Positions 5,454-20,627 of a stretch of DNA of 55,404 nucleotides are shown here, piece by piece. The DNA is from Sphingobacteriales bacterium (lineage in GTDB: Bacteria > Bacteroidota > Bacteroidia > Chitinophagales > Chitinophagaceae): NCBI GenBank assembly GCA_004144175.1, contig SEFT01000011.1:1-55404 (forward strand), read 5' to 3'. Positions within the stretch are counted from its first letter, which is position 1. The number at the start of each line of letters is the position of its first letter. The notes beneath the pieces were generated by a model that had not been told where the DNA came from, did no database searches, and saw nothing but the letters and a program-made list of their open reading frames with translations. The translations under genes were made by a program, and so were the position numbers.

Positions 5454-6551
5454 TTAAAATAACTTCAATTGAACTGCGTGCTGCGGCTTCTGCGATATCT
5501 CATCAAAGTTGGAGAGAGATATACCCAGAAGCCGCGTTTTTTTACCTTCAGGGTCGGTGGCCAGCAATAGGGATTTAGCGGTGACAGCAATGGTTTCCAA
5601 ATCACCTACGGGAAAGGTAAAGGACTGGCTGCGTGTTATCTGGCGGAAATCGCTGTATTTTATTTTTAAAGTAATGGTGCGGCCTTTTAGCTGATAACGC
5701 TGGAGGCGGTTATATACGAGGCCTGCAATGCGATCCAGCTCTGTATTCATCTCTTCAATAGTAGTGAGGTCGTACGCAAAGGTATCTTCGGCACCCGCCG
5801 ATTTTGCTTCACGTTCGGTCACTACTTCCCTGTTATCAATTCCCCTTACGATGCGGTAATAAAACCGGCCAGTTTTGCCGAATAGCCTTACTAAATCGTC
5901 CTCGCTTAGTTTCTTCAGGTCGGCACCGGTGTGCAAACCTAATCGCTTCATTTTTTCAGCAGTCACTTTACCTACTCCGTGAAACTTGCCTACCGGCAGT
6001 TGCTCCATAAAATCTTCGATGGCCGACGGGCCAATGAATGCCAGGCCATCCGGTTTATTCAGATCCGATGCTATCTTGGCAACAAACTTATTGACCGAGA
6101 CACCGGCGGATGCAGTGAGCTGCAGCTCGTCTTTAATGGCTTGCTTTATTCGTTTAGCGATCTCTATGGCCGAGCCTATATTTTGCTTATCTGTGGTCAC
6201 ATCCAGGTATGCTTCGTCCAGCGAGAGCGGCTCTACCATATCGGTATAGCGATAAAATATATCTCTGATCTTTCGGGACGCCTCTTTGTAAGCATCAAAC
6301 CTTGGATAGACAAATATGGCGTGCGGACAAAGTTGCTTCGCTCTTTTAGAAGGCATAGCGGAACGTATACCATATACCCTGGCCTCATAGCTTGCAGTTG
6401 CTACGACTCCCCCCCTGCCTTCGGGCGAACCGCCTACTACTATGGGCTTACCGCGATACTCCGGAAAATCGCGCTGCTCTACCGATGCATAAAACGCATC
6501 CATATCTACGTGGATGATCTTACGAACTGTATACGTTTGTTCTGCTTCCAA
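5454..6551 (-). CDS. dinB: DNA polymerase IV (Y-family translesion polymerase)
   Basis: At 365 residues this matches DinB. The catalytic acidic residues are visible in HVDMDAF (Asp16) and PLSLDEAYLD (Asp112, Glu113). VGKVTAEKMKRLG is the helix-hairpin-helix of the thumb. The last five residues, QLKLF, fit the sliding-clamp-binding motif. The start codon is TTG: an in-frame stop lies four codons upstream and there is no ATG before the catalytic HVDMD. It follows pabB by 50 bases in the same direction and is probably in one transcript with it. Unlike ImuB at 18-19.6 kb, it keeps a complete active site. Confidence 0.95.
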   Translation of the reverse strand: MEAEQTYTVRKIIHVDMDAFYASVEQRDFPEYRGKPIVVGGSPEGRGGVVATASYEARVYGIRSAMPSKRAKQLCPHAIFVYPRFDAYKEASRKIRDIFYRYTDMVEPLSLDEAYLDVTTDKQNIGSAIEIAKRIKQAIKDELQLTASAGVSVNKFVAKIASDLNKPDGLAFIGPSAIEDFMEQLPVGKFHGVGKVTAEKMKRLGLHTGADLKKLSEDDLVRLFGKTGRFYYRIVRGIDNREVVTEREAKSAGAEDTFAYDLTTIEEMNTELDRIAGLVYNRLQRYQLKGRTITLKIKYSDFRQITRSQSFTFPVGDLETIAVTAKSLLLATDPEGKKTRLLGISLSNFDEISQKPQHAVQLKLF

Positions 6552-14854: not shown

Positions 14855-17800
14855 TTATCTGAAGTTTCTACCGGAAGGGAATATCTCTGCTTGAATAACT
14901 TTTTGCTTTTTTATACGATGATCTTTTGAGTCATAGTCCGTTCCGTCCTCATCTGCCCTTAGCGGATTTCGTAATGCTGTATTGTCGTTAGGCATTGCAG
15001 ACAGCTGTAAAAGCCCTGACATGTTATAACACTTCTGCGCTATTACGTGGATCACCGAGCCCTCTATCTGTAGCTTACCCTCTACCATCAGCAGCTTTGA
15101 CTGAAGTATCTCTTTGCGATATTTATTAAAAAGATGCTTGAACACAACAATGTTTGCCACACCGGTTTCGTCTTCTATCGTAATGAATACAATGCCGCTC
15201 GCAGTACCCGGCCTTTGCCTTACCAATACCAGCCCCGATACCCTTACGATCTGACCATCTTTATAAGAGCCTAGCGTTTGATTCGTCACGGCGCTGTTCA
15301 ATGCCAACTTTGCCCTGACAAAGCTAACAGGATGCGCCTTTAGTGACAGTGCCGTAGAGCTATAGTCGTGCAATACGTGCTCGGGCAATGTCATACGGGG
15401 TATTCCTATGGTCTCTGATTGTGTTTCAGAAGGCTGGCATGCAAATATCCCTATTGGCCTGTCAGCAAGGGCTGAGACCTCCCACAGGGCCTGTCTTCTA
15501 TCAAGCCCTATTGAACGAAAGGCGTCTGCATCGGCCAGTTTTTCCAAAGCATTTAAAGGCACGCCTACCTCAAGCAAAAAATGGATATGAGTATAAGGTT
15601 TTTGACGGGCTGCCACGAGCAACTGCATATCCTCTTCATTCAGCCCCTTTGCCTGCCTGAACCCAAGCCTAAGCGCACAATACTTATCTATCTTTTCCTC
15701 CAATGTATTGTCCCAATAAGAAGTGTTTATATCGACAGGCCTTACCTCCACCCCATGCTTTTGTGCATCGATGACCAGCTGAGCAGGCTGATAAAAACCC
15801 ATAGGCATGCTATTGAGTATAGCAGCAGCAAATACATCGGGATAATAGCATTTGATCCATGATGAAACGTAAACTAACAAAGCAAAGCTGGCCGCATGGC
15901 TCTCTGGAAAACCATACGCACCAAAGCCCTCTAGTTGGCGAAATACCCGCTTTGCAAATTCTTCTTTATATCCTTTCGCAATCATACCATTTACCAGTTT
16001 CTTCTCAAAATCGCTTACCTGCCCTTTAGCTTTGAATGTGGCCATGCTCCTTCGTAACTGGTCAGCTTCAGCAGGTGTAAACCCTGCCGCAACAATGGCT
16101 ATCTCCATTGCCTGTTCTTGAAATAATGGTACACCTAACGTCCTTCCCAGGATTTCTTCTAATTCATCAGATGGATATTCAACAGGGGCAATACCCTCCC
16201 TGCGACGCAGATAGGGGTGAACCATATCTCCCTGGATCGGACCCGGCCTTACAATGGCGACCTCAATTACAAGATCATAAAATTCTTTAGGCTTCAATCG
16301 TGGCAGCATAGACATTTGGGCACGGCTTTCTATCTGGAAAACACCAATCGTATCAGCTTGGCATATCATTTCATATACAGCCTTATCTTCCTGTGGTATA
16401 TTTGCCAGCGTCAAATCAAGATTGTAATGCTCTTTTGCCAGGTCGAATGCTTTTTTGATACAAGTAAGCATACCCAGAGCCAAAACATCTACTTTGAGGA
16501 AACCCAGAGCTTCCACATCGTCCTTATTCCATTCGATACAAGTACGATCTTCCATACGTGCATTCAGTATCGGGCAGAGGTCACTAAGCTTACCTTGCGT
16601 AATTACAAACCCACCGGTATGCTGCCCAAGCTGTCGTGGAAACCCGATATACTGTTGCGTAAGTTCCAGCACCTTCCTTAGATGCGGATCATTTACATCA
16701 AACCCTTCGCTGGTTACCGTGCGTCCATTGTGCCATTCATCAGTAAACTCCCACGACGAGTTAGCCAGGCTATTAATAGCATCTACAGATAAGCCCATTG
16801 CCTTTGCTACGTCGCGCACTGCACCCCTGTAATGCACCTGTGTAACTGTAGCTACAATGGCAGCCCGGTCACGCCCATATTTTTTATAGATGTACTGGAT
16901 AACCTCTTCGCGCCTTTCATGTTCAAAATCGACATCTATATCGGGCGGCTCATCCCTTGCATCTGACATGAAACGTGCAAACAATAGCCTTACCTTGGTA
17001 GGGTCTACCGATGTAATGCCAAGGCAATAGCAAATGATAGAATTAGCCGCTGAGCCACGTCCCTGGCAGAGTATATTTTCACTCTGTGCAAACCGTACAA
17101 GATCATAGACAGTAAGAAAGTATGCTGCATAGTTTTTACTCCCGATAAAGTCCAGCTCAAACTGAATGAGCTCCCTGAATTTACCAGGTATGTCTTTACC
17201 AAATTTTTCGTCAGCACCCTTCCATGCTAGGTATACTAATTCTTCCTGTGGCGTTCTTCCTTCGCTGGTTATCTCTTCAGGATATACGTACTCGAGGGTG
17301 TCTAGCGAGAATTGGCAGGCTTGCTCTATTTCTATGGTTTTGTCAATAGCATCAGGATATTGCCGGAAAAGGCGTTGCATTTCAGCTATGGGTTTCAGGT
17401 ATCGTTCTGCATTTTGATAGAGCCTGAAGCCTGCATTGTATATAGTACATTTCTCGCGTATGCAAGTAAGTATATCCTGCAATTCTCTTCGCGCTGGCAC
17501 ATGATAGTATACGTTGTTTGTTGCTACCAAAGGTATCTGCAGCTGTTGTGACAACTGCGACAGCCTGTATAGCCTCTTAGTATCATTCGCCTGATAAGAG
17601 CGTGTAGCGCCCAGATAAAACTCAGTACCTAAATGTTCTTTATACTCCTTTGCTGCTCTATAAAATTCCTGTTCAAAATCAAAATGACTATTGAGCGTAT
17701 CGGGTGGAACCAGGATGAATTTTATATCCTTTGCACATCGATACACATCAGTTTTGTATAGATGGCAGTGTCCTTTTTCTGTACGCAAGTTGCCTTCGGA

Positions 17801-18076
17801 TAACATGGCAGATAGACGGGCATATCCATCTTTGTTAATCGGATAGGCCAATAACGATGGACCATTCAGCAGATCGAGCCGGCAAGCCGGTATGATACGT
17901 ATATTGCTACCCCTTGCTGCTTTATGCGCCCGCACAATACCGGCCAGCGTATTTGCATCAGTAATGGCTACTGCTTTATATCCCAGTTCAATTGCCTGCT
18001 TTATGACCTCTTCGGGGTGTGAGCCTCCCCTGAGAAAACTAAAGTTTGTGGTTATTTGCAGCTCTACATAATTCAT
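14855..18076 (-). CDS. dnaE2: Error-prone DNA polymerase DnaE2 (ImuC)
   Basis: This 1073-residue C-family polymerase is the catalytic part of the mutagenic translesion complex ImuA-ImuB-DnaE2. It begins with YVELQITTNFSFLRGGSHPEE, the DnaE2 form of the PHP domain; the HxH of replicative DnaE is replaced by Glu and Gln, so the PHP metal site is likely inactive. The palm keeps GRGSAANS (about 339-346) and PPDIDVDFEHERRE (377-390). An OB fold (VRVSGLVLVRQRPGTASGI) is near the C-terminus. It starts 6 bases after the imuB stop, which marks it as the last gene of the cassette. Confidence 0.95.
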   Translation of the reverse strand: MNYVELQITTNFSFLRGGSHPEEVIKQAIELGYKAVAITDANTLAGIVRAHKAARGSNIRIIPACRLDLLNGPSLLAYPINKDGYARLSAMLSEGNLRTEKGHCHLYKTDVYRCAKDIKFILVPPDTLNSHFDFEQEFYRAAKEYKEHLGTEFYLGATRSYQANDTKRLYRLSQLSQQLQIPLVATNNVYYHVPARRELQDILTCIREKCTIYNAGFRLYQNAERYLKPIAEMQRLFRQYPDAIDKTIEIEQACQFSLDTLEYVYPEEITSEGRTPQEELVYLAWKGADEKFGKDIPGKFRELIQFELDFIGSKNYAAYFLTVYDLVRFAQSENILCQGRGSAANSIICYCLGITSVDPTKVRLLFARFMSDARDEPPDIDVDFEHERREEVIQYIYKKYGRDRAAIVATVTQVHYRGAVRDVAKAMGLSVDAINSLANSSWEFTDEWHNGRTVTSEGFDVNDPHLRKVLELTQQYIGFPRQLGQHTGGFVITQGKLSDLCPILNARMEDRTCIEWNKDDVEALGFLKVDVLALGMLTCIKKAFDLAKEHYNLDLTLANIPQEDKAVYEMICQADTIGVFQIESRAQMSMLPRLKPKEFYDLVIEVAIVRPGPIQGDMVHPYLRRREGIAPVEYPSDELEEILGRTLGVPLFQEQAMEIAIVAAGFTPAEADQLRRSMATFKAKGQVSDFEKKLVNGMIAKGYKEEFAKRVFRQLEGFGAYGFPESHAASFALLVYVSSWIKCYYPDVFAAAILNSMPMGFYQPAQLVIDAQKHGVEVRPVDINTSYWDNTLEEKIDKYCALRLGFRQAKGLNEEDMQLLVAARQKPYTHIHFLLEVGVPLNALEKLADADAFRSIGLDRRQALWEVSALADRPIGIFACQPSETQSETIGIPRMTLPEHVLHDYSSTALSLKAHPVSFVRAKLALNSAVTNQTLGSYKDGQIVRVSGLVLVRQRPGTASGIVFITIEDETGVANIVVFKHLFNKYRKEILQSKLLMVEGKLQIEGSVIHVIAQKCYNMSGLLQLSAMPNDNTALRNPLRADEDGTDYDSKDHRIKKQKVIQAEIFPSGRNFR

Positions 18077-18082
18077 AGCTAT

Positions 18083-19579
18083 CTATGCAAAGAATCCGTG
18101 AATAAACCATTTGGGTTCACCGCTATCATATCGCCCCAGCCTAAATATCCAGTAACGTGCGCCATTCTCATCTTCTATACAATAGTAGTCTCTGTATAGT
18201 CCCTGTTGCAGCCACCATTCCTGCTCTATCCGCTCGGGGCCATCTGCTTTGCTTACCTTATGAAGCTTGCCCTTGTGTATAAATAGCATAGGAGGATAGT
18301 CAGGTATAGGCACTGTTACTTCGATAAGTTCGGGCTCCGGTAACAGATGCACAGGGCGCGGCATATCGGTACGCCAGTCTGTATCCGGCTTTTCATCTAA
18401 GGATGCTGCCAGCTTAAAAGACCGCTCCGGCCAGTAATGCTCATCGGGCAGGTAACGATGTATGGCATCTATCCCAACCTTGCCGGCCAGTTTATCCAGC
18501 AGCTCCGCTACATTTGCTTCGTTGTGTTTATTAGTGGTATTCCAGAAGGCATCCTGGCTGGCAGTCATATCTTCTACAACAGGTGCCTCCATCATGAAAA
18601 GCTCAAAGCCCAGTGCAGGCTCTATTGTGGCTACTTTTATCTCAAAGAGCTTGAACAGGTGCGTTGCATTTCGGGAGGCCCTTGTGGTACTGATCCGGAT
18701 CTGCTGAATATTATTATCTACCCGGTATGCTTTAAGCGTACATAGGCGTAAGCCCTTACCATCCTTTTCCAGCTGTTTGCATAGTTTGTCCAGCAGTTTC
18801 TGTATTGCTATTTCAATAGCTGTAGCTGTGCGTACAGGCTCCAGGCAAGGTAGCCGCTCCTGATATGGTTCAACAGGTTTTACAGGCGTTACTACTTCTA
18901 TTGCCTGCCCCAATGCCTGGTCGAGCCTCGTGAGCAATGCCTCGCCAAAGCGCCTGCGTAGGGCGGAGCGTGGCATTTTAATGAAGCTGCCAATGGTATA
19001 AAGCCCAAGCTTTATCAAGCGGTCTACTATCGAGGCATTGAGCCTTAATGCGATCGGGTGCAAGGGCAAGAGTGCATCTAATTGTTTGCCCTGGTCAACT
19101 ATCTGCATACTTCCATACCTTGATACCGCCCACGCGGTACCAACGGTATCGGCAATAGCAATGCGTATATGATAGCCCAAGCCACTGAATCTTGTTGTTA
19201 TGTCTTTCAGATACTGCTCTTCGCCACCCCATAGGTGCGTGCAGCCGCTTACATCCAGTATAAGCCCATCTGCTTCATCCACCGCAGCTATAGGCGTGTA
19301 TCGCATACACCATTCAGCAAGCGCGTTCAGTAATTTTTCTTTTTGTTCCGGGTTGTAATCGAAGACTTGTAAGCCGGGCAGTATAGCTCTGCAATCTGCC
19401 ACTACCATGCCGCTATGTATCCCCTTGCTATGCGCTGCTTTATTGACGGCTTTAATAACCATCCTGCCGCGTTCGGGCATTGCCAGTACAAATGGCACCT
19501 TAGCCAGGTTAGGATTACGGCGAACGATCCAATCTGCCATTAAATGGCAAAACCATATAGCAACAAAACGCTTTGCCAT
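18083..19579 (-). CDS. imuB: ImuB, Y-family-polymerase-like mutasome subunit
   Basis: This 498-residue protein is the adaptor of the DnaE2 mutasome, thought to link DnaE2 to the sliding clamp and ImuA. It has the Y-family layout, but the first catalytic aspartate of DinB (HVDMD) is replaced by AIWFCHLMADW (residues 7-17). The second site reads AAVDEADGLILDVSG, so an Asp-Glu pair (101-102) remains. The active site is therefore incomplete and polymerase activity is unlikely. LPCLEPV (about residue 244) is a usual ImuB linker. No C-terminal QLxLF clamp motif is seen. It starts 1 base after the imuA stop. Confidence 0.93.
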   Translation of the reverse strand: MAKRFVAIWFCHLMADWIVRRNPNLAKVPFVLAMPERGRMVIKAVNKAAHSKGIHSGMVVADCRAILPGLQVFDYNPEQKEKLLNALAEWCMRYTPIAAVDEADGLILDVSGCTHLWGGEEQYLKDITTRFSGLGYHIRIAIADTVGTAWAVSRYGSMQIVDQGKQLDALLPLHPIALRLNASIVDRLIKLGLYTIGSFIKMPRSALRRRFGEALLTRLDQALGQAIEVVTPVKPVEPYQERLPCLEPVRTATAIEIAIQKLLDKLCKQLEKDGKGLRLCTLKAYRVDNNIQQIRISTTRASRNATHLFKLFEIKVATIEPALGFELFMMEAPVVEDMTASQDAFWNTTNKHNEANVAELLDKLAGKVGIDAIHRYLPDEHYWPERSFKLAASLDEKPDTDWRTDMPRPVHLLPEPELIEVTVPIPDYPPMLFIHKGKLHKVSKADGPERIEQEWWLQQGLYRDYYCIEDENGARYWIFRLGRYDSGEPKWFIHGFFA

Positions 19580-19580
19580 C

Positions 19581-20315
19581 TTACCCTGTTTGTACGGTAT
19601 GCTTTTGAGATATGGAAAACATCCTGAGTGTTATGTGCCTGAAGCCATTATCCGTCCATTCTATCATCCATCTGCCCGGCTTGCCATTCCGCACCTTCAA
19701 GAGCTGTACATTCCACCGCGGAAGCCCTACACCGGGCATTCCATCTTCCGGCATAGTTATCATTGGCTTTATACTCCACCTTGTAAGGCATGCAACTGTA
19801 TTGGCCGATCTTGGGCTGTAGCGATGAATAAGGCCCGTAACGCCACTTTGCTCAACGGCCAGTTGCAACCGTCTTGATTCTGTAAAGCTCAGATCTTTGA
19901 GCTCTCCTATAACTGCCGATAGCGCCTCGCATTTCAATGCTTCTTCAACAGCCCACAGCACATCCTTCTGGCGGGTAAGGTCTAAAAATATGATGCGTTC
20001 AGGCGCTAAGCCAAACAACTTGAGTGCCGGTGGAAATACAGTTCTTTTATTGCTGATCCATAAGCAGGTGCGGTCTTGCTGCATGACCCTGCTCATCAGG
20101 CCCGATATGAAGCCATTAGTCGCTGCATTTTCTTCTGCCGTATTGCTGATGAATTCGTGTACTGCATTTATAGGAAAGATGCCTTGAGGAAAAGCATTTT
20201 CAATGGCACCCAAACACATATCGGGCTTGTCGCTGCCTGATACTTTTTTGTATCCCTGCAAAGAGAGCACATCCCTTTGTAACCGTTCAACAATATCATT
20301 TTTTGCAGCACTCAT
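19581..20315 (-). CDS. imuA: ImuA, accessory protein of the DnaE2 mutasome
   Basis: The 244-residue protein has the Bacteroidota ImuA pattern: an opening AKNDIVERLQRDVLSLQG, then NAVHEFI, CLWISNKRTVFPPALKLFGLAPERIIFLDL and a RecA/SulA-like core, ending in GKPGRWMIEWTDNGFRH. A consensus P-loop is not visible. It is the first gene of imuA-imuB-dnaE2. The ATG at 20315 gives the conserved N-terminus; an in-frame ATG at 20342 would add nine residues but lies upstream of the predicted transcription start. With that promoter (20321-20350) the mRNA would be leaderless or nearly so. Confidence 0.9.
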   Translation of the reverse strand: MSAAKNDIVERLQRDVLSLQGYKKVSGSDKPDMCLGAIENAFPQGIFPINAVHEFISNTAEENAATNGFISGLMSRVMQQDRTCLWISNKRTVFPPALKLFGLAPERIIFLDLTRQKDVLWAVEEALKCEALSAVIGELKDLSFTESRRLQLAVEQSGVTGLIHRYSPRSANTVACLTRWSIKPMITMPEDGMPGVGLPRWNVQLLKVRNGKPGRWMIEWTDNGFRHITLRMFSISQKHTVQTG

Positions 20316-20355
20316 TTGCACAAATGTATAACTATTGAACATTTGTACAAATGTT
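20313..20355. promoter_or_regulatory. Twin palindromes over the imuA promoter, candidate operator
   Basis: Two related palindromes lie 27 bp apart. The distal one is the perfect 18-bp AACATTTGTACAAATGTT (20338-20355). The proximal one is CATTTGCACAAATG (20313-20326), symmetric except for the central two bases, and it ends on the imuA start codon. One covers the -33 element and the other the -7 element. This layout suits a dimeric repressor acting on the mutasome, but no regulator is identified here. Confidence 0.65.
20321..20350 (-). promoter_or_regulatory. Promoter of imuA-imuB-dnaE2
   Basis: The minus strand reads TTG (20350-20348), a spacer of exactly 19 bases and TACATTTG (20328-20321), a full match to the Bacteroidota consensus. 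The -7 box ends 5 bases before the imuA ATG at 20315, so any 5' leader would be very short or absent. Confidence 0.75.
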
Positions 20356-20550: not shown

Positions 20551-20556
20551 TAAGAG

Positions 20557-20627
20557 AGGTCGCGAGCGGATTCGAACCGCTGTAGAAGGTTTTGCAGACC
20601 TTTGCCTAGCCACTCGGCTACGCGACC
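20557..20627 (-). tRNA. tRNA-Cys (anticodon GCA)
   Basis: The 71-base minus-strand sequence folds as a cloverleaf. The acceptor stem is GGTCGCG with CGCGACC, the anticodon stem AAGGT with ACCTT encloses the loop CTGCAAA (anticodon GCA), and the T arm is GCGG-TTCGAAT-CCGC. The D arm contains GCCGAGTGG. The 3' CCA is not encoded. It has its own promoter at 20641-20670 and a terminator at 20512-20550. Confidence 0.96.

Follow-up and report, generated by a model that had tools for sequence, protein, structure and literature searches.

The stretch analysed here, called the window throughout, comprises 55,404 nucleotides of contig SEFT01000011.1 from a Sphingobacteriales bacterium of the family Chitinophagaceae (assembly GCA_004144175.1). 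The system in question is its mutagenesis cassette imuA-imuB-dnaE2, together with two palindromes in front of imuA and a LexA-like S24 repressor, P0001, encoded in the same genome, G000 (Table 1). In other phyla, this cassette is under the control of a LexA SOS operator.

Table 1. Features at the imuA locus and the repressor gene (window positions unless a contig is named)
Feature	Position	Strand	Remarks
dnaE2	14855..18076	-	NF004225 error-prone DNA polymerase, 1366 bits
imuB	18083..19579	-	Y-family, PF00817 IMS
imuA (P0002, 244 aa)	19581..20315	-	NF033429 ImuA, 60 bits, below that model's cut-off of 150
Second palindrome, CATTTGCACAAATG	20313-20326	.	Shares bases with operator B and with the likely start codon of imuA
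Operator B of imuA (predicted), TATACATTTGTGCA	20317..20330	-	8/10; over the putative -7 element TACATTTG (20321-20328)
Operator A of imuA (predicted), TGTACAAATGTTCA	20336..20349	-	9/10 as TGTAC-N4-GTACA; covers the putative -33 element (TTG, 20348-20350)
First palindrome, perfect, 18 bp, AACATTTGTACAAATGTT	20338-20355	.	Contains most of operator A
tRNA-Cys (GCA)	20556-20627	-	Upstream of imuA, same strand
P0001, LexA-like S24 repressor gene	G000:C39:34847-35575		PF00717, 35.3 bits, over the cut-off

Palindromes and putative promoter in front of imuA

A sequence-only reading of this DNA had described twin palindromes, each lying over one element of a promoter of the form TTG-N19-TACATTTG on the minus strand, and had proposed that they form an operator for an unknown damage-responsive repressor. 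Both palindromes are real, and the promoter-like sequence was found to overlap them as described; its putative -33 and -7 elements are named after what we take to be the Bacteroidota promoter consensus, and promoter activity is predicted. The first palindrome is the sole perfect 18-bp palindrome in the window (mean of 0.15 expected from 20 window shuffles), and a search of the window allowing up to 3 mismatches to it returned only itself (0.03 expected). CATTTGTNCAAATG has two exact matches in the 4.34 Mb genome, both at the imuA site. In the second palindrome, the CAT at the left end (20313-20315) is complementary to the likeliest imuA start codon, and this half is therefore not independent evidence.

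The tight form of the site, TGTACAAATGTNC, occurs exactly at six places in the genome, before imuA, P0001, recA, a Y-family polymerase gene, the gene for a topoisomerase-IV-like B subunit and a family-less gene, which bears out a link to repair genes (recA, the Y-family polymerase and imuA). A related site, TGTACAATTGTACA, lies 44 nt upstream of a repair radical-SAM gene (TIGR03916), which is followed by a TIGR03915 gene. These six places and TGTACAATTGTACA point to the dyad TGTAC-N4-GTACA rather than to the axis CATTTGTnCAAATG on which the palindromes had been centred. The dyad axis of TGTACA-WW-TGTACA sits 4 bp off that earlier axis at both sites, and the palindrome described earlier appears because AAAT and ATTT flank the shared GTAC. 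The most fitting reading of the palindromes is that a single operator, TGTACA-WW-TGTACA, is present twice, once over the -33 and once over the -7 region of imuA-imuB-dnaE2, with a start-to-start distance of 19 bp. Whole-genome searches with shorter cores found the same sequence before recA, the Y-family polymerase gene and P0001, the sole gene passing the Peptidase_S24 model. TTTGTACAAA alone was rejected as a motif: it occurred at 21 places vs 4 for the reversed control, and it is too short because many matches fall inside genes.

Several further observations were made around these sites. Operator B and the -7-like box (window 20313-20330) come very close to the probable start codon of imuA, operator B ending one base short of it, so that the transcript would have almost no leader, or perhaps none. 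At window 5802-6518 (minus strand) lies a portion of another Y-family polymerase gene, with 29% identity to the boxed Y-family polymerase, and no site of at least 9/10 was found near it. Elsewhere in the genome, a 9/10 box lies at -173 relative to an NrtR-like NUDIX gene, and a perfect box stands about 200 nt upstream of a gene for a 256-aa protein (L311 1327-2097, G000:C54) that adjoins and precedes a HAM1-type pyrophosphatase gene. The 256-aa protein had no match in Pfam, NCBIfam or PHROG; from the look of its sequence it is possibly a recombination protein.

The repressor P0001 and its probable box in the genus

P0001 has Ala108-Gly109, Ser147 and Lys188 at the positions expected of a self-cleaving repressor, and these residues are invariant in 16/16 aligned relatives. 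PHROG profiles classed it as a CI-like repressor, with the profile spanning residues 14-212, and the LexA_DNA_bind winged-helix domain gave no match in Pfam or NCBIfam at 1e-3. In the AlphaFold model of a 72-73% orthologue (L241), the N-terminal half is all helical, with five helices, and the C-terminal half is rich in beta structure; the best matches of this model among solved structures were the lambda-186 hybrid and 186 repressors, followed by the LexA C-terminal domain, and XRE domains were also matched. A search of solved structures by sequence returned one weak match, a chain named DBP48. P0001 is probably autoregulated, because the box lies before its own gene. An orthologue of P0001 was present in 13 of 14 genus mates at 67-73% identity, and the mate without it is 84% complete. 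At 70% identity or more, it was found only in the own genome and in G050 when one genome per genus was searched across 79 genera of the family; G055 has two relatives at 49-55%, which carry other DNA-binding halves.

Boxes were scored at the ten arm positions of TGTAC-N4-GTACA, with the spacer unscored and the best upstream site taken per locus. This scoring replaced a first site logo that had used a list of allowed spacers and was hence circular at the spacer. Of the 15 repressor genes (own genome, 13 mates and G050), 14 had a site of at least 9/10 upstream (shuffles 1.0%), and such a site was also found upstream of imuA in 12/12 loci from nine genomes (shuffles 1.5%; six of the 15 genus genomes, which gave no imuA match, are outside this count). 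Upstream of recA, the site reached at least 9/10 in 8/13 loci (shuffles 1.5%) and at least 8/10 in 13/13 (shuffles 18%), the recA counts omitting G089, in which recA is split between contigs, and G079, in which it is partial. In general, about 17–18% of shuffles reached at least 8/10. The promoters of the Y-family polymerase had a box of at least 10/12 between -82 and -7 in 13/13 cases (42/1300 shuffles), a count that omits G090 (no match) and G079 (a distant paralogue only).

Of 40 sites, 97% had A and 97% had T at the unscored spacer positions beside the arms, so the symmetry extends to TGTACA-WW-TGTACA. Scored in this form at 11/12 or better, the site was present in 14/14 repressor, 12/12 imuA, 8/13 recA and 5/13 Y-polymerase promoters, vs 6, 5, 1 and 3 of the same promoter sets for the earlier register at 12/13 or better; the axis CATTTGTnCAAATG was thereby ruled out as the operator. 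One repressor locus, L083, is absent from the site logo and from the register, promoter-overlap and three-box counts. Across 51 genus loci, sites of at least 9/10 numbered 46 in 19,649 promoter bases vs 10 in 178,954 other bases, a density about 40-fold higher in promoters, although the promoters include some that set the consensus. In two genomes, a small family-less gene diverges from the repressor gene (L021 638-1027 and L043 2752-3177) and is a candidate SOS gene.

SOS boxes and repressors of related genera

P0005 of G055, which represents the S24 repressor usual in the family, had matches of 64-82% in 7/9 other genera of the relatives set. Across the 15 genomes of the genus, its sole near-full-length match was an extra copy in G090 at 39%; the other matches were partial, at 41% or less, and mostly to P0001-type proteins. 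G001 and G005 have only copies at 36-38%, and G088 has an extra diverged copy. In seven sister genera (G002-G004 and G006-G009), the box CTAA-N5-TTAG was found at 8/8 before lexA (7/7), recA (7/7) and imuA (3/3 of those that have it), and a TGTAC site above 8/10 was found at none of these genes. Conversely, the CTAA score was at most 7/8 in 15 P0001-type loci, 11 genus imuA loci and 13 genus recA loci. This comparison omits L120, which was scored in the spacer-free test, as well as L199 and L202, which were not readable as whole genes.

The box also followed the DNA-binding half of the repressor among nine named loci, of which L248 gave no readable gene and was left unscored. Six loci with a P0001-type helix-turn-helix (HTH) scored 8-10/10; four of these are DNA of G082, G050, G092 and G087 already counted, and the two new ones scored 9/10 and 8/10. 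Another HTH is present in two Paraflavitalea relatives with a C-terminal identity of 57-58%; these scored 6-7/10 upstream and thus have no box. A protein tree set the P0001 group apart from the family's CTAA-type proteins (support 100/99), the published proteins not being in the tree. P0001 clustered with copies whose DNA-binding halves differ from its own; one of these adjoins a phage-integrase gene, and another lies close to an HTH_17-like open reading frame that scored below the Pfam cut-off. The tree contains long branches, G004mob above all.

Two further arrangements were seen in single genera. In G055 (L076), imuA is divergent to yet another S24 LexA-like gene, forming a self-contained regulator-mutasome unit, and neither the CTAA nor the TGTAC box reached threshold before its imuA. 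In G001 (L200 and L116), both a diverged LexA-like gene (TGTCATCAGAAGTGACA) and imuA (TGTCACCAATAGTGACA) are preceded by TGTCAY-N5-GTGACA, and none was seen before recA of the same genome; this box may be a third SOS operator of the family.

Non-canonical LexA proteins of Bacteroidetes have been described as SOS regulators of the S24 phage-repressor type (Sanchez-Osuna et al. 2021, PMC8565304). As far as its main text goes, the system described here resembles them in having an S24 peptidase with Ala-Gly and Ser-Lys, a DNA-binding half that is probably of phage-repressor type, to judge by the model of an orthologue, and palindromic operators and autoregulation (both predicted here), and the regulon predicted here has recA, dinB, imuA-imuB-dnaE2 and the radical-SAM repair pair in common with theirs. 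The same text places Chitinophagaceae under CTAA-N5-TTAG, from which the box TGTACA-WW-TGTACA differs in sequence and in having four instead of five bases between its TGTAC and GTACA arms, and P0001 differs from the CTAA-type proteins of the family in falling into a separate clade. Thus, the regulator type and an S24-run SOS response in Bacteroidetes are already published, and what differs here is the operator sequence and the clade of the regulator. Literature searches and the main text of PMC8565304 gave no paper with a TGTACA-WW-TGTACA box, the diverged palindromes of its Table S10 being outside this search. FddR of Francisella (Perez-Varela et al. 2026, PMC13148647) is likewise a phage-type S24 DNA-damage regulator that is autoregulated via a palindrome; unlike the present case, in which recA, the Y-family polymerase gene and imuA are boxed, it runs a very small network via GTG-N11-CAC and recA is not induced.

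Proposed regulation of the cassette and its alternatives

We consider it very probable that the imuA sites are SOS operators of the LexA-like S24 repressor P0001, which would bind TGTACA-WW-TGTACA and control the imuA cassette, recA, the Y-family polymerase gene and its own gene. What was observed is the sites, their conservation in the genus, the link to repair genes, the presence of the repressor with its catalytic residues, and another box and repressor in most of the sampled sister genera; DNA binding, dimer formation, cleavage, repression and damage induction by P0001 are what we infer. A P0001 dimer would bind each operator; with the operators 19 bp apart, the two dimers would lie on about the same side of the helix, cover the -33 and -7 elements, block RNA polymerase and so prevent expression of the mutagenic cassette. 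When DNA is damaged, P0001 would be induced by the RecA filament to cleave itself at the Ala-Gly bond via the Ser-Lys dyad, releasing imuA-imuB-dnaE2, recA, the Y-family polymerase gene and the repressor gene itself. Compared with the LexA-controlled cassette of other phyla, the same cassette would stand under an SOS operator, with a different DNA-binding fold of the repressor and a different box. The proposal of an operator for a damage-responsive repressor thus gained from the conservation in the genus, the link to recA, the Y-family polymerase, imuA and the LexA-like gene, and the frequent promoter overlap, and lost its symmetry axis. To call the repressor unknown was too strong, given that P0001 has the same box before its own gene and that S24 SOS regulators of Bacteroidetes are published in PMC8565304.

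Several results weigh against this interpretation. No Pfam HTH was matched in P0001 at 1e-3, and the confidence of the AlphaFold model is modest, with a predicted local distance difference test (pLDDT) score of 62.6. The recA sites are weaker, 5/13 standing at 8/10, and no box was found upstream of the repressor gene at one genus locus (L083, in G084). Counted over whole genomes, TGTACNNNNGTACA occurs 12 times in the own genome and once in G050, whose repressor is of the same type, and other genera reach as many as 18; this raw count does not separate the genus from others and was discarded as a family-wide marker, not being diagnostic. The topoisomerase box is 10/10 in the own genome vs 6-8/10 in the other 13 genus loci, and the subunit was consequently no longer counted in the core regulon. 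Of the sister genera, 3/7 have the CTAA box (8/8) before the topoisomerase gene, and the box is absent before their nearest Y-family genes, which are distant paralogues. The closeness of operator B to the probable imuA start codon, which would make the transcript nearly leaderless, also counts against it. Finally, the own genome encodes two more S24-type paralogues with other DNA-binding halves, L072 (C15:145973) and L073 (C39:104016).

These paralogues raise the alternative that the sites belong to one of them, a mobile-element-type repressor sharing the box by chance. Both have S24-type C-terminal halves with catalytic residues, and L073 adjoins a phage-integrase gene. Among the other 38 genomes, none was found to carry a close copy of either (the extra copy in G082 is a different one), yet the box is genus-wide; moreover, none of the six exact TGTACAAATGTNC places adjoins either gene, and their own upstream regions have, by eye, TTTAC..GTAAA-like repeats instead. 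We regard this alternative as very unlikely.

Slighter still is the chance that the AT-rich Bacteroidota promoter (TTTG, TAnnTTTG) gives rise to the palindromes as a side effect and that they have no operator function. TACATTTG is both the -7 consensus, as we take it, and half of the box, the second palindrome described earlier takes in the start codon, and TAnnTTTG overlaps the box in 13/14 repressor, 7/12 imuA and 7/13 Y-polymerase promoters. Before recA, however, the two are mostly apart: they overlap in 2/13 promoters, and TAnnTTTG lies nearer the gene, at -36 to -44 in 12/13. The repressor promoters have three boxes, the second and third lying downstream of the first at fixed spacings (41 and 19 bp) in 14/14 loci given. 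The promoters of lexA, recA and imuA in the seven sister genera have no box at 9/10 or above, and the enrichment of the box in promoters of the genus likewise speaks for an operator.

An equally slim prospect is that a damage-responsive regulator outside the S24 family reads the box and that P0001 is one target among others; SOS-like systems without LexA exist and binding by P0001 is inferred, but the box tracks the P0001-type HTH where tested (the genus, G050 and the two further named loci) and is absent with another HTH in 2/2 Paraflavitalea loci, and seven genera pair the usual repressor with the CTAA box instead. Autoregulation is also reported for S24 SOS repressors of Bacteroidetes in the main text of PMC8565304.

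With control by P0001 as the preferred interpretation, the origin of the system can be considered. On balance, and by a narrow measure, we favor a course in which a Flavipsychrobacter-/Taibaiella-like lineage lost the usual SOS repressor of the family and captured a mobile-element-type, HTH-swapping repressor, whose operator was then built before recA, the Y-family polymerase gene, imuA and other repair genes, often atop the -7 box. In the model given in the main text of PMC8565304, a diverged duplicate regains the regulon after loss of the first copy; the tree instead points to an S24 clade of its own, with mobile-element-type copies among its members. It favors a separate origin of the repressor over divergence of an old duplicate, but it cannot date it. 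The third box in G001, with its two instances, hints that such replacement is recurrent.

The mutagenesis cassette of this organism would accordingly be held under an SOS box whose sequence does not appear in the main text of PMC8565304. In bacterial evolution, the SOS box shifts with unusual frequency. The sister genera keep the old box before the same genes, and the proposed replacement can therefore be traced promoter by promoter, with the states before and after it retained at orthologous promoters.
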